Part shown: in pieces, positions 22,390 through 32,283 of the stretch
How positions within the stretch are numbered: position 1 is the first letter of the stretch
Layout of the letters: the number at the start of each line of letters is the position of its first letter
From: Olivibacter sp. SDN3
GTDB taxonomy: Bacteria; Bacteroidota; Bacteroidia; Sphingobacteriales; Sphingobacteriaceae
Reading direction: 5' to 3'
DNA: 64,000 nucleotides
Assembly: GCF_014334135.1 (NCBI RefSeq)
Contig: NZ_CP060497.1
Span: 992,001 to 1,056,000, forward strand
The notes under the pieces: model-generated
What the model saw: only the letters and a program-made list of their open reading frames with translations
Told to the model about the DNA's origin: nothing
Databases searched by the model: none
Made by a program: the position numbers and the translations under genes

Positions 22390-23889
22390 ATGCTTACATT
22401 AAAAAATTTTGAAGTTTGGTTCATCACCGGCAGTCAGGATCTCTACGGCCCGGAAACGCTTGCCCAAGCAGCAACCCATGCGCAGGAGATTGCACAATAT
22501 TTAAGTGATCACTCCACAATTCCTGTAAAGGTTGTTTACAAGCCCATTGTAAAGAATTCGGAAGAAATTTTTGACACGATCTCACAGGCCAATACGTCGC
22601 GGGAATGTATCGGCCTCATTACTTGGATGCATACATTTTCTCCTGCGAAAATGTGGATAAGGGGGCTAGACGTGTTAAAGAAGCCTCTACTTCATCTTCA
22701 CACGCAATTTAACCGAGATATTCCCTGGGATGCCATTGATATGGACTTCATGAACCTGAACCAGAGCGCACATGGTGATCGGGAGTTTGGTTTCATTGTT
22801 TCCCGTATGCGCATCAATCGAAAAGTGGTTACCGGTTTTTGGCAAGACGAAGAAGTTATAAACAAAATAAATATTTGGACGCGTGCGGCAGCAGCCTGGA
22901 ACGACTGGCAAGGAGCCAAATTTGTGCGTTTCGGAGATAATATGCGTAATGTCGCTGTTACAGACGGCGATAAAGTAGCAGCGGAAATGAAATTTGGCTT
23001 TTCTGTTAATACCTATGCGATCGGTGATCTAGTAGCTGCGATTAATAAGGTGACAGACGATCAGGTCAACAGCTTGGTCACACAGTATGAGCAGTGTTAT
23101 CTTTTGGCAGAAAATGTACAGAAGGGCGGAGCGCTTCGGCAACATGTAATCGATGCGGCCAGAATTGAACTGGGATTAAAAACATTTTTAGAAAAGGGTG
23201 GCTTCAAAGGGTTTACAGATTCGTTTGAAGATTTACATGGTATGGTTCAGCTTCCTGGAATTGCTGTTCAACGGTTAATGGAACAAGGCTATGGCTTTGC
23301 AGGTGAAGGTGATTGGAAAACGCCGGCACTGGTTAGGGCCTGTAAAGTAATGGCCTCTGGCCTGAAAGGGGCCAATGCTTTCATGGAAGACTATACCTAT
23401 CATTTTGATCCGGCAAACATGATGGTTTTAGGTTCGCATATGTTAGAAGTAGACGCTTCTTTAGCTAAAGAAAAACCACGTTTGGAAGTCCATCCACTGG
23501 GGATTGGGGGCAAAGCAGACCCCGCGAGATTGGTGTTCAACTCTTCTGGTGGACCAGCATTGAACGCCTCTTTAATTGATATGGGTAACCGATTCAGGCT
23601 GATTGTAAATACAGTAGAAGGTATCGATGTAGAGCAACAGCTCCCGAAACTTCCTGTAGCACGTGTATTCTGGAAGCCGCTACCTGATATGAAAACAGCC
23701 TGTACAGCATGGATATATGCCGGAGGAGCACATCATACGGTCTATAGCCAAAACCTTACTTCGGAATACCTAGAAGACTTCGCTCGCATAGCCGATATAG
23801 AATTCGTAAAAATTGACCACCATACACAGCTCGACCGATTTGAAAACGAATTAAAATGGAGTGAAGTATATTATCAGCTACATCAATAA
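22390..23889 (+). CDS. araA: L-arabinose isomerase
   Basis: A 499-residue enzyme converting L-arabinose to L-ribulose. The manganese and catalytic residues sit as in E. coli AraA: Glu306 (AGEGDWKT), Glu333 (FMEDYTYHF), His350 (GSHMLEVD) and His449 (GGAHHTVYS). The start [24 protein letters not shown] is family typical. An 80-bp gap separates it from araD; a 12-nt direct repeat ATTAATAAACAT occurs in it at 22334 and 22380, the second running into the ATG. A terminator-like hairpin follows. Confidence 0.96.
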
Positions 23890-23892
23890 ATC

Positions 23893-23923
23893 AAGAAGTG
23901 TGCTTTAAGAGCATACTTCTTTT
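23893..23923 (+). terminator. Hairpin with T-run after araA
   Basis: AAGAAGTGTGCT (23893-23904) and AGCATACTTCTT (23910-23921) pair with one G-T mismatch around a 5-nt loop and run into TTTT. It may lower expression of the symporter gene relative to araBDA, or separate the two. Confidence 0.6.
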
Positions 23924-23958
23924 CTGCATTTACATAAACAACCCTTTAGCGTTAACCA

Positions 23959-25656
23959 ATGGAAAAATTTGCACCTGTTGACTACATCATATTTTTCATC
24001 TACTTTGTCGTTGTTGCCGGATATGGCTACTGGATTTATCAAAAAAAACGCTCAACAGTAGCCGATAGTAAAGACTATTTCCTTGCTGAAGGATCTTTAA
24101 CTTGGTGGGCAATTGGGGCGTCGCTCATAGCTTCCAACATCTCCGCCGAACAATTTATAGGCATGAGCGGCAACGGCTTTACTGTCGGTATAGCAGTAGC
24201 TGCCTATGAATGGGTCGCAGCACTGGCATTAATTATTGTCGCCGTGTGGTTTATTCCTGTTTATTTGAAGAACAAGATATTTACCATGCCACAATTCTTA
24301 AATAATCGCTATAACGAAACCACCAGTTTAATCATGGCCGTATTCTGGTTATTCTTATATATTTTTGTAAACCTTACTTCCATTCTTTTTCTAGGCGCAC
24401 TAGCTATCAACAACCTTGCTGGCGGGGGGAGTTTCCATCTTATCGTAATAGCCTTGGCTATATTTGCCATTGTGATTACCTTAGGTGGGATGCGTGTAAT
24501 TGGTTTCACTGATGTTATACAAGTACTCGTTTTAATTATTGGAGGTGTAGCTACCACCTATATCGCGCTCACCTTAGTAAGTGAGCACTTTGGGTTAGGG
24601 AAGAATGTATTGGCAGGTTTTACCCAACTCATGAAAGATTCTCCGGAACATTTCAAGATGATTATTGATAAACCCACCGAAAATTCTACGCAAGAAGAGA
24701 TTAATAAATACCTAATGTTACCTGGTTTAGGAATGTATTTAGCAGGTATCTGGATTGTGAATTTGAATTATTGGGGATGTAATCAGTATATCACCCAACG
24801 TGCTTTAGGGGCAGACCTAAAGACCGCTCGTACCGGAATTTTATTTGCTGGTTTCCTTAAGTTATTTATGCCCGTCATTGTGATGTTACCTGGTATTGCC
24901 GCTTATGTACTGTATAAAAACGGTGCGCTACAAGAAGAGATGGCCCCGGCAGGAAATTTCAATCCAGATAATGCCTATTCGGCCATTTTGGGATTCCTGC
25001 CCGACGGAATGAAAGGGCTTTCACTGGCGGCGCTCACCGCTGCCATTGTCGCATCTCTTGCTGGTAAAGCCAATAGCATTGCCACTATATTTACGATGGA
25101 TATCTACAAGAAATATATGAAAAAAGATGCCTCAGAAGAAAACCTAGTCTCGGTGGGTAAAATAACCGTTATAATAGCTATTGCGGCTTCCATTTTATTT
25201 ACTTGGGATGACATGTTGGGCATCGGTGGAGAAGGTGGATTTACCTTCATTCAAAAATATACCGGTTTTATCAGTCCAGGCGTATTAGCCATGTTTTTGC
25301 TTGGTATGTTCTGGAAGCGAACAACAGGCAGTGCAGCCATCGTTGGGCTTATTCTTGGCTTCGTACTATCCGTATTATTTAATAATTACGCCCCTTCCTG
25401 GTTTGGCAGGGAAACGTGGCTTTACACCGCTTACCCTACTGGACGAGGTGGCTTTGAGATACCTTTCCAGATTTGTATGGGTTTATCTTTTTTATTTACT
25501 GTTATCGCCATGATCGTTATAAGTTTTGCAGGTCCTAAAGTAAATCCAAAAGCGTTTGCTATAGATTCTAAAATGTTCAAGGTAGAACCTTCTGTATTGA
25601 TCATGATTGTCATTACTATTTTATTGGTGAGCGCGCTTTATGTCAGGTTTTGGTAA
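23959..25656 (+). CDS. Sodium/solute symporter (SSS family), probable L-arabinose transporter
   Basis: A 565-residue membrane protein with about 14 helices, of the SGLT-like branch. Markers: SLIASNISAEQFIGMSGNGF (helix 1 sodium-site region), NLNYWGCNQYITQRALGA, and AALTAAIVASLAGKANSIATIFTMDIYKKY. It would import sugar with sodium across the inner membrane. Position after araBDA makes L-arabinose the likely substrate. Its stop codon lies in the first copy of a small direct repeat, TTTTGGTAAAGGCTC (25648-25662) and TTTTGTAAAGGCTC (25675-25688). Confidence 0.88.
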   Translation: MEKFAPVDYIIFFIYFVVVAGYGYWIYQKKRSTVADSKDYFLAEGSLTWWAIGASLIASNISAEQFIGMSGNGFTVGIAVAAYEWVAALALIIVAVWFIPVYLKNKIFTMPQFLNNRYNETTSLIMAVFWLFLYIFVNLTSILFLGALAINNLAGGGSFHLIVIALAIFAIVITLGGMRVIGFTDVIQVLVLIIGGVATTYIALTLVSEHFGLGKNVLAGFTQLMKDSPEHFKMIIDKPTENSTQEEINKYLMLPGLGMYLAGIWIVNLNYWGCNQYITQRALGADLKTARTGILFAGFLKLFMPVIVMLPGIAAYVLYKNGALQEEMAPAGNFNPDNAYSAILGFLPDGMKGLSLAALTAAIVASLAGKANSIATIFTMDIYKKYMKKDASEENLVSVGKITVIIAIAASILFTWDDMLGIGGEGGFTFIQKYTGFISPGVLAMFLLGMFWKRTTGSAAIVGLILGFVLSVLFNNYAPSWFGRETWLYTAYPTGRGGFEIPFQICMGLSFLFTVIAMIVISFAGPKVNPKAFAIDSKMFKVEPSVLIMIVITILLVSALYVRFW

Positions 25657-25730: not shown

Positions 25731-25762
25731 TTGCATTAACAAAATTTTATTTTATACATTTG
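25731..25762 (+). promoter_or_regulatory. Strong promoter of the arginine operon
   Basis: TTG (25731-25733), 21 nt, TACATTTG (25755-25762) is a full match to the Bacteroidetes -33/-7 elements. Transcription should start near 25769, about 310 nt before the first structural gene. Just upstream a small dyad TTATGT-N5-ACATAA (25698-25714) could bind a regulator. Confidence 0.75.
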
Positions 25763-25768
25763 CATCTA

Positions 25769-26080
25769 CTATCCATAAAAATGGGTGTTTTAGATGAATA
25801 TATTAAACCTTTATATTGCGAATAATGCTAAGCAGGCCCAAGTTGGGTATGCTCAGGTAATGATTTGTGAAAAGGTTCTTACCAGTAAACTGGTACTAAG
25901 AGTCCGACGACCCATTATGCCCCGGGCATGATTTCGAGGGCATACCCATTTACCTACAAATACAGTAGCGAGTCCGGTTATTGTACTACATCAACAAAGA
26001 ATTAACAAACAGATAATTTAAATCAAACGTTAGAGCAAAATGCGTTATTTTGTTTTGTTCTCTTGGGTCATTTTCATTCA
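25769..26080 (+). promoter_or_regulatory. Long structured leader of the arginine operon (candidate attenuator)
   Basis: Segment A, TGGGTATGCTC (25844-25854), pairs with segment C, GAGGGCATACCCA (25936-25948 region), over about 11 bp with one G-T pair. Segment C can instead pair with segment B, ATGCCC (25917-25922), which overlaps the last Arg codon. ACCAG-TAAA-CTGGT (25881-25894) is a further hairpin. Ribosome position on the leader frame at 25794-25931 would decide which stem forms. No GC-rich terminator is present; an AT-rich hairpin CAAAAT/ATTTTG with Ts (26036-26056) lies just before the acyltransferase ATG. The mechanism (transcription or translation control) is open. Confidence 0.55.
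25794..25931 (+). CDS. Candidate arginine leader peptide (45 codons)
   Basis: An ATG about 25 nt after the predicted transcription start opens a 45-codon frame ending ...RVRRPIMPRA-stop. All four arginine codons (AGA, CGA, CGA, CGG at residues 36, 38, 39, 44) fall in the last ten codons, overlapping RNA segments that can form alternative stems. This is the layout expected of a leader peptide that senses charged tRNA-Arg, placed before an arginine biosynthesis operon. No Shine-Dalgarno is evident, which is usual in this phylum. Translation is not proven. Confidence 0.5.
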   Translation: MNILNLYIANNAKQAQVGYAQVMICEKVLTSKLVLRVRRPIMPRA

Positions 26081-26776
26081 ATGAATACTTCAAATTTTGT
26101 TGTTATTCCTGCCAATGAATCGCATATAGGATATGCTGAGCAGATTTGTAACGAAATGGCAGAGTCTGCCAAAGCGCGAGGGACAGGTATTGCACGTAGA
26201 AAACCTGAATATATTGTCAATAAAATGCTTGAGGGTAAAGCCGTCATAGCACTTCATAAGGATGGCACCTGGGCCGGCTTTTGCTACATTGAAACTTGGA
26301 GTCACGGGGAATACGTGGCTAACTCGGGGCTCATAGTAAATGCTACCTTCAGAAAAGAAGGGCTAGCGAAAGCTATTAAAAAGCGCATATTCGAATTGTC
26401 AAGGGAAAAGTATCCTAAAGCCAAAATATTCGGGCTGACCACCGGTTTTGCCGTTATGAAAATAAATTCTGATCTAGGTTATGAACCCGTTCCCTATTCC
26501 GAATTAACACAGGACGAGGAGTTTTGGAAGGGTTGCCAAAGTTGCGTAAATTACGACATTTTGATGAGTAAAGAACGTAAAAACTGTATGTGCACTGCCA
26601 TGCTGTGGGACCCGGCGGAAAAAGAAAGAGAATTACGCCAAAAAATTGAGCAAAAGGCAAAAGCAAAGGAACGGCTAAAACAAATGCAAAAGAAGCATTC
26701 ACTATTAAAACGCATAGAATTAAGTTTACGGAGACGCAGTAAAATTATAGGATCTTTACTTCTCGCATTCGACTAA
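26081..26776 (+). CDS. GNAT-family acyltransferase, probable N-acylglutamate synthase of arginine synthesis
   Basis: A 231-residue GNAT protein; the acyl-CoA-binding region is around VNATFRKEGLAKAIKKRIFEL (about 86-107). It is unlike ArgA or ArgJ but stands first in an operon that lacks any other enzyme for acylating glutamate, so it is the best candidate for that step (inference). Odd features: a cysteine cluster C152-x2-C155-x13-C169-x-C171 that could bind metal, and a basic, lysine-rich C-terminal helix (about 180-225). The ATG at 26081 is preferred over an in-frame TTG at 26063. Confidence 0.75.
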   Translation: MNTSNFVVIPANESHIGYAEQICNEMAESAKARGTGIARRKPEYIVNKMLEGKAVIALHKDGTWAGFCYIETWSHGEYVANSGLIVNATFRKEGLAKAIKKRIFELSREKYPKAKIFGLTTGFAVMKINSDLGYEPVPYSELTQDEEFWKGCQSCVNYDILMSKERKNCMCTAMLWDPAEKERELRQKIEQKAKAKERLKQMQKKHSLLKRIELSLRRRSKIIGSLLLAFD

Positions 26777-31497: not shown

Positions 31498-32283
31498 ATG
31501 GAAAAACTAAATATCATAAAGATTGGGGGCAACATTGTAGAGGATGAGAGCACCTTGGTAAGGTTTGTAAAAGCTTTTGCTAAATTGCCCGGAAAGAAAA
31601 TTTTAGTACACGGAGGCGGTAAAATTGCCAGTCTGCTCGCCAACAAATTGGGAATTGAAGCTAAAATGGTAATGGGAAGGAGAATTACCGATGAAGAGAC
31701 GTTAAAGGTGGTAACGATGGTATATGCTGGACTCGCCAATAAGACTATTGTATCTCTTTTACAAGCTGTTGGATGTAATGCTATCGGTCTCAGCGGAGCC
31801 GATGCAAACACCATCAAAACGGTAAAAAGACCCGTGAGAGAAATCGACTATGGCTTTGCCGGTGATATGACCACCTCTTCGATTAATACTGAACAAATCA
31901 AAAATTTAATAGAAATTGGTCTTTATCCCGTTTTTTGTGCGATAAGTCATGATGGCTCCGGGCAATTATTAAATACTAATGCAGACACGATTGCCTCTGC
32001 CCTTGCTGTAGGTTTAGCGTCTCATTATAAAACGGCGCTCATCTATTGTTTTGAAAAGAAGGGAGTGCTCCGTGATATAAACGACGACTCGTCAGTGATT
32101 CAGCATATCAATAATTTGAACTATAACGATCTTAAACGATCTGGCATTATTGCTGATGGCATGATTCCTAAATTAGACAATGCTTTTGACGCGCTGTCTG
32201 CAGGAGTGAGCGAAGTCATCATTAAACATGCGGATGATCTGCAAAACACCGATGCTGGAACAACGATCAATCAGCAAGTGTAA
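31498..32283 (+). CDS. argB: N-acylglutamate kinase
   Basis: A 261-residue amino-acid kinase. Motifs: IKIGGNIVEDE and LVHGGGKIASLLANKLG (phosphate and glutamate binding), ending with SGIIADGMIPKLDNAFDAL. The short N-terminus lacks the helix linked to arginine feedback inhibition in hexameric kinases, so this enzyme may be insensitive to arginine (inference). That would fit control at the leader level. Confidence 0.93.
   Translation: MEKLNIIKIGGNIVEDESTLVRFVKAFAKLPGKKILVHGGGKIASLLANKLGIEAKMVMGRRITDEETLKVVTMVYAGLANKTIVSLLQAVGCNAIGLSGADANTIKTVKRPVREIDYGFAGDMTTSSINTEQIKNLIEIGLYPVFCAISHDGSGQLLNTNADTIASALAVGLASHYKTALIYCFEKKGVLRDINDDSSVIQHINNLNYNDLKRSGIIADGMIPKLDNAFDALSAGVSEVIIKHADDLQNTDAGTTINQQV

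Follow-up and report, generated by a model that had tools for sequence, protein, structure and literature searches.

A probable arginine-sensing leader peptide upstream of the arginine operon of Olivibacter sp. SDN3 and its relatives

Directly upstream of an arginine biosynthesis operon in Olivibacter sp. SDN3 lies a short reading frame whose last codons are rich in arginine, and comparison with its relatives leads us to think it fairly probable that this frame encodes an arginine-sensing leader peptide. The leader would control, in cis, an operon with the gene order GNAT-argG-argC-argD-carbamoyltransferase-argB-proC-argE, and a ribosome stalled within it would open the start of the GNAT gene. 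Our window (the whole stretch of 64,000 nucleotides that was analysed, in which all positions below are counted) comes from a genome of 6.12 Mb in one contig. An original prediction, made from the letters of this window alone, had placed an arginine-sensing leader here, and that proposal is now strongly supported by a frame and Arg codons that are kept in relatives and by a hairpin with compensatory changes at the leader stop. Its suggestion that control might be translational also fits the clade of the window, where a helix that we call P3 reaches the GNAT start. The elements at the two ends of the region, and the codons of most interest, are these:

25731 to 25762, + strand: promoter, Bacteroidetes-type (TTG at 25731-25733, a gap of 21 nt, TACATTTG at 25755-25762)
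25794 to 25931, + strand: leader peptide gene, 45 codons, with ATG at 25794 and stop at 25929-25931, ending ...LRVRRPIMPRA* (MNILNLYIANNAKQAQVGYAQVMICEKVLTSKLVLRVRRPIMPRA)
25905 to 25910, + strand: CGA-CGA, the proposed sensing codons, partly inside the 5' arm of P3
26081 to 26776, + strand: GNAT gene, first in the operon

Promoters of Bacteroidetes have the consensus TTG-N19-21-TANNTTTG, and we take the TTG and TACATTTG of the window to be a promoter of this type. The promoter that had been claimed before the leader is indeed in place, and the claimed leader of about 300 nt corresponds to about 310 nt between promoter and operon. Of the 168 loci studied (duplicates counted), 82 have TANNTTTG no more than 110 nt 5' of the leader ATG, compared with 6.3% of base-shuffled nearby segments. 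Genes for an L-arabinose isomerase and a sodium:solute symporter occupy 22390-25656, directly 5' of the leader region. For the GNAT gene we prefer the ATG at 26081, which is common to aligned relatives, over the TTG at 26063. 'GNAT' itself is the label of the original prediction, this first gene of the operon having matched no Pfam or NCBIfam model; its top named-record match, among the best 80 of 526 confirmed candidates, is from Olivibacter sitiensis at 88% identity. A second, diverged GNAT copy (47-55% identical) is present elsewhere in a number of genomes (G004, G023, G076, G079, G085, G104, G110, G116, G123, G128, G132, G142, G158 and G167), and some of these second copies hold stop codons. 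Within the operon, argG, argC, argB and proC score above NCBIfam cut-offs, and the argD-, acetylornithine carbamoyltransferase- and argE/dapE-like genes match below them, the carbamoyltransferase being nearest to the N-acetylornithine type; the proC frame as listed overlaps the 3' end of argB by 56 nt (32228-32283).

The leader peptide contains four Arg in total, all within its last ten codons, exactly as had been claimed, and the question is how far this arrangement is kept in other genomes. Relatives were collected by searching for GNAT in named contigs (the best 80 of 526 confirmed candidates being used), in 60 genomes including the window's own, of which 39 gave a match, and in 151 genomes of the family, again including its own, of which 129 matched and 92 of these 129 had their upstream DNA examined. 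The 92 together with the 80 named loci make 172 upstream regions, 148 of them distinct over the last 200 nt. A leader frame lies 50-200 nt before the GNAT start in 171 of the 172 regions (147 of the 148 distinct ones), by patterns that were built after looking, the sole region without one being that of a Flavobacterium MAG (L098). A count that uses no pattern gives much the same picture: the number of Arg among the last 12 codons of the best upstream frame is four for 136 of the 172 regions, three for 11, two for 24 and none for one (114, 9, 24 and one of the distinct regions), and four Arg are reached by 0.8% of 1720 dinucleotide shuffles, the loci being kin, so that counts across them are not independent. 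Both the frame and its Arg codons, the conservation of which the original prediction had offered as its check, are therefore kept. In its own genome the leader-end pattern has one match and a control pattern none, and a second copy of the leader end was not found by the exact pattern.

The leader frame also looks translated, to judge from alignments in which residues stay fixed while synonymous codons vary. For example, in 26 distinct leaders of the type ending RRRxxxPR, the three consecutive Arg and the Arg before the last position are invariant and the codons vary in two of these four, the third Arg being written CGG, AGG, CGA or AGA and the last CGG, AGG or AGA; in the same leaders Pro stands at position -3 in 23 of 26, with all four Pro codons in use. 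In 17 distinct leaders that end in TPRI, Thr, Pro and Arg each appear with several codons; the first Arg of these loci is CGG in 17 of 17 and the second varies synonymously. The shifted leader type of a large genus, g14 (L031, L149-L166), ends in SRQNFTPRI* or similar. The pair CGACGA itself is present in 26 of 26 distinct RRRxxxPR-type leaders and in all 42 loci of the alignment (A1) described below, and it is missing in some types, L019 having CGA-CGG and the TPRI type CGG-CAA. We considered that CGA might have been favoured as a rare codon and rejected this reason, since CGA makes up 13.2% of the Arg codons in window frames of more than 300 amino acids and so is not rare. Some leaders (L023, L030, L014 and L018) end in FPRR*, and a small, perfectly paired hairpin (GACGC-TGAT-GCGTC, for example) holds their stop codon in its loop; those of L167 and L168 have an FPRR*-like end too.

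Around and beyond the leader stop, the RNA of the window is predicted to form several structures, and none of 200 shuffles folds as well as this leader RNA (z -2.98). The structural elements are as follows:

25916 to 25922, + strand: 5' arm of hairpin P1, from the end of the Ile codon through Met and Pro, pairing with 25938-25944
25938 to 25944, + strand: 3' arm of P1, directly beyond the leader stop codon
25923 to 25927, + strand: P1-loop strand of K, a proposed kissing interaction (CGGGC, in the Arg-Ala codons)
25961 to 25985, + strand: hairpin P2, 25961-25967 with 25979-25985, its loop at 25972-25976 being the K partner
26032 to 26061, + strand: A/T-rich hairpin, about 26032-26042 with 26051-26061, in predicted folds of the window's genus

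These were followed in A1, an alignment of 42 loci from the window's genus, strain A37T11, Parapedobacter and Sphingobacterium, from which two identical rows were removed and Albibacterium L058 omitted. In P1, two-sided changes occur at alignment pairs 21-50, 22-49, 24-47 and 27-44, and of particular interest are columns 24 and 27, where silent changes in the leader codons (Leu CTG/CTA, Pro CCC/CCT) are matched by changes past the stop. Pair 30-98 of K is split between A-U (23 of the 42 loci) and G-C (19), and on the GNAT tree each of its sides has changed three times, with three joint changes of the pair; in the window, the Ala codon GCA disrupts one K pair that is found in most relatives. 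In P2, both sides change in all six pairs counted, and there are two registers, one per sub-clade. Taken together, P1, K and P2 pair in 89.1% of the cells of A1 as against 79.3% when shuffled and 33-47% when slid, with a covariation score of 0.369 as against 0.205 (0 of 500 shuffles) and at most 0.132 when slid; the number of pairs with two-sided change, a weak measure, is 11 versus 8.9 in shuffles and is reached by 50 of 500. Across 89 loci, which cover all types, the arms of P1 score 15.7 when native and 11.8 when swapped between species. In nearly all RRRxxxPR (Mucilaginibacter) and Myroides-type loci, with the exception of L084, native P1 arms are no better than swapped ones; by eye, GGGTTT in these loci may pair with AACCC further 3'. 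As for known RNA families, the window gave no Rfam match at gathering score and three matches far below it at E up to 10, and the candidate families (riboswitch, T-box) were set aside accordingly.

The original prediction had drawn its switch between two mutually exclusive pairings, 25917-25922 with 25938-25943 and 25844-25854 with 25938-25948. Both can be found in the window, and the former, which lies within P1, is compensated, whereas the latter is not kept in relatives. Indeed, the 25844-25854 helix has 11 pairs in the window, a number reached by 0 of 50 shuffles, and the partner strand is absent in sister species, where 56, 26 and 34% of shuffles do as well as the best alternative helix (L003, L004 and L005, respectively). 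As a conserved switch we have rejected it, the best such helix having a mean of 14.1 versus 13.6 in shuffles over 54 loci of the clade, and it could have a species-specific role. The conserved alternative is instead, as far as the aligned sequences indicate, a pairing of the Arg-codon strand with the GNAT initiation region, P3:

25909 to 25914, + strand: 5' arm of P3, GACCCA, from the second Arg codon to the Ile codon
26064 to 26069, + strand: 3' arm of P3, TGGGTC, 12-17 nt 5' of the GNAT ATG

At the heart of this helix is a GGTC that complements the GACC of CGACGACC in the Arg-codon strand. It is the commonest 4-mer in the last 26 nt before the GNAT ATG. Of the 54 distinct loci in the window's clade, 52 have it there, against none of the 93 remaining leader loci, and it appears in 3.9% of base shuffles of those 26 nt; this control strengthens the case for P3 in the clade, and with 0 of 93 we have dropped P3 as a candidate outside it. 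The two clade loci that do not have GGTC are L004 and L006, the leader of the latter being identical to that of L032. The core of P3 pairs in 40-42 of the 42 loci of A1, in a register set by GGTC, which means that this figure is not independent of the GGTC count. More telling is the pair adjoining the core, which is C-G in 16, T-A in 19, T-G in 3 and unpaired in 4 of the 42, that is, paired in 38 as against 29.5 in shuffles (0 of 5000). This is the one compensated column of P3, the outer columns a9, a3 and a2 being no better than shuffles, and the length of the helix varies from six pairs in the window, L003 and L005 to four in L004 and none in L032. Among 22 further loci, 11 duplicate A1, and in the other 11 a best-helix search without shuffle control found P1 in 11, P3 in 10 and K in 8. 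A consistent P3 was not found in the RRRxxxPR clade, in which CGA-CGA is invariant all the same, so that P3 is not the sole cause of these codons. Isolated helices of other sequence lie near the start in L106 (8 pairs at -20), L088 (6 at -14) and L089 (5 at -15).

Folding models are consistent with a role for this strand. In these models, all computed with loop-loop pairing left out, forcing segments of 8 nt open lowered the cost of opening the GNAT start by 2.98, 2.67 and 2.39 kcal/mol for segments at stop-29, -25 and -21. The effective segments span stop-29 to stop-14 and contain CGACGACC; other segments lower the cost by at most 1.05 kcal/mol, and one that holds just the first two bases of CGACGACC changes it by -0.26 kcal/mol. 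Once the RNA that would lie under a ribosome stalled at the first CGA is removed, the modelled opening energy for this start is lower at 39 of the 42 loci, equal at one and higher at two, with a fall of the mean from 10.05 to 6.66 and a small rise in the mean unpaired probability of the start from 0.40 to 0.45.

What the compared sequences show is the kept frame, the compensation in P1, P2 and K, and a P3 complementarity confined to a narrow register; stalling, and the direction that control would take, we infer as follows. When arginyl-tRNA is scarce, the leader ribosome would stall at CGA-CGA (25905-25910), and in the window's clade it would then cover 25909-25914, leaving 26064-26069 unpaired, the GNAT start open and the operon expressed. 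When arginine is sufficient, the ribosome would instead reach the leader stop and depart, after which P1 would be expected to close around the stop codon with its loop kissing that of P2, and the Arg-codon strand would sequester the GNAT initiation region. Since a ribosome stalled at CGA-CGA would free the GNAT start, control in the window's clade is most likely exerted at translation rather than via Rho.

The most serious rival is transcription attenuation in all members, in which the leader would govern a terminator, whether intrinsic or dependent on Rho, with P1, P2, K and P3 as terminator or antiterminator parts. We consider this unlikely, and the evidence differs between types of leader. 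A strict rule, set after seeing a looser scan and asking for a hairpin that ends 5-45 nt before the start, finds terminator-like hairpins in 15 of 23 Pedobacter-type loci (RRPxMPR[VTFA]), ending 9-39 nt before the GNAT ATG, when shuffles give about 1-2% overall and about 1% in the comparison for this type; it also finds them in 4 of 11 LRRRP-type and 1 of 12 'other' loci, in 0 of 28 RRRxxxPR and 0 of 19 TPRI loci, and in just two of the 53 distinct loci from the clade of the window. In the window itself neither the strict nor the looser rule marks a terminator-like site on the + strand before GNAT, in keeping with the original statement that a GC-rich terminator is missing, and P3 sits at a translation start, which again speaks against a terminator. 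However, the looser scan, run over the whole stretch from leader to start, marks 30 of 94 loci where 9.8 are expected, and in the window's clade 14 of 43 where shuffle rates predict about 5.5, several of these being P2 followed by a T-rich tail; this weakens the case against terminators, and a transcriptional component may exist in this clade. Rho, moreover, is reported to act on an Arg-codon leader in Salmonella speF (PMC6386406). As a side observation, L021, L070, L080, L082, L097 and L187 share one hairpin, AGACTAAAAACGTAGTCT, which has a T-run and ends 38-39 nt 5' of the GNAT start; in L021 and L070 it is followed by a second G+C hairpin with a T-run.

Two further readings deserve mention, and we rate both well below transcription attenuation. 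TnaC and SpeFL are arrest peptides that act at the stop codon, and by analogy the Pro-x-x-Pro-Arg-Ala end of our leader might be an arrest sequence through which free arginine is sensed there. The Pro-Arg before the last residue is indeed kept by synonymous codons where P1 is not found (Pro in 23 of 26, Arg in 26 of 26), yet the last residue varies, leaders of other families end in plain Arg runs, and arrest at the stop would put the ribosome over P1 and a large part of the 5' arm of P3, so opening GNAT under arginine excess, which would be the wrong sense for a biosynthetic operon; we think this very unlikely. Less credible still, to the point of being almost dismissible, is that the region is structured RNA only, a riboswitch or protein site in which the frame is incidental: strong RNA conservation in the window's clade is what one would expect of it, but synonymous substitution under fixed residues is not, nor is the presence of Arg-rich leader frames in clades with different downstream structures, and Rfam offers no match at gathering score. 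An arginine-sensing leader that acts on the GNAT start remains our preferred reading for the window.

The output device may differ by clade. The wider proposal, about which we are evenly divided, is that one family has one arginine leader and two switches, namely start-closing sensor codons with a kissing-loop core in Olivibacter, Parapedobacter and Sphingobacterium and intrinsic terminators in the Pedobacter type, and that across the phylum arginine leaders are found where ArgR is missing. The ArgR family (PF01316) has no match in 60 genomes, the window's own and 59 relatives, and matches 9 of 14 control genomes. Among 99 genomes of the phylum, ArgR is found in 42, GNAT in 39, both in 2 and neither in 20, a distribution that follows clades and so is not independent; in the two with both (G201 and G222) the ArgR matches are weak, at best 33 and 27 bits. 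Beyond the family, an upstream frame with at least three Arg in its last 12 codons is present at 22 of 34 GNAT loci, as against 8.7% of shuffles, with ends such as RFPRRR*, LRRRRPMRRR* and RRFRRRPSGRV*, these frames being chosen by Arg count alone, so that single cases may be chance. With at most two Arg at the other 12 of the 34, the leader is not a universal feature beyond the family, and the starts of these outside loci were assigned by script, at least that of L121 looking wrong. We think that all this offers a testable route for the control of arginine synthesis in Bacteroidota without ArgR, and the family is a natural series in which a peptide sensor appears to be kept and its output device swapped, start-site sequestration for terminator or the reverse.

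How does such a leader compare with what is known? In the trp and his attenuators of enterobacteria, cognate codons are clustered in a short leader gene before a biosynthetic operon, and the same is true here, with the differences that no terminator was found in the window, that the sensor codons complement the start region and that there are two hairpins with complementary loops. In translational attenuation of the ermC type, a ribosome stalled in the leader gene frees a sequestered start region, much as we propose, although here the signal would be aminoacyl-tRNA supply rather than an antibiotic, and a single long-range helix would take the place of ermC's four alternating segments. According to a paper of 2010, the only leader peptides demonstrated before its own Firmicutes case, apart from ermC, were in Proteobacteria and Actinobacteria (PMC2965389), and for Actinobacteria no conserved arginine RNA element was reported, T-boxes being named for arginine elsewhere (PMC1262725). 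Within the same phylum as our window, clues for leader-peptide attenuation before amino-acid operons have been described in Flavobacterium psychrophilum, a likeness to our case, with no arginine leader named in the portion of that report available to us (PMC9723704). The available portions of PMC8632094 and PMC4833913 likewise contain no arginine leader in Bacteroidota, nor did the literature searched, a scope outside which most subscription papers fall.

The nearest precedent in the literature found is orf34 of Salmonella, in which two Arg codons sense arginine for speF (PMC6386406, here and below from the part available). There, as here, two consecutive Arg codons lie in a leader peptide, with pausing at low arginine, a hairpin directly past the leader stop and a downstream ribosome-binding site that is closed at high arginine. 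Unlike our operon, orf34 controls an ornithine decarboxylase, in gammaproteobacteria, and acts via Rho and RNase G, and its peptide has an HIRRT core that sits at codons 12-13, well away from the stop; inspection of our leader sequences by eye did not reveal this core of SpeFL/ORF34 (DUF2618). In addition, the Arg codons of orf34 are not presented, in that part of the report, as a sequestering strand of the kind that we propose for P3, and sensor codons that double as the strand closing the start would, if true, make for an unusually economical switch.
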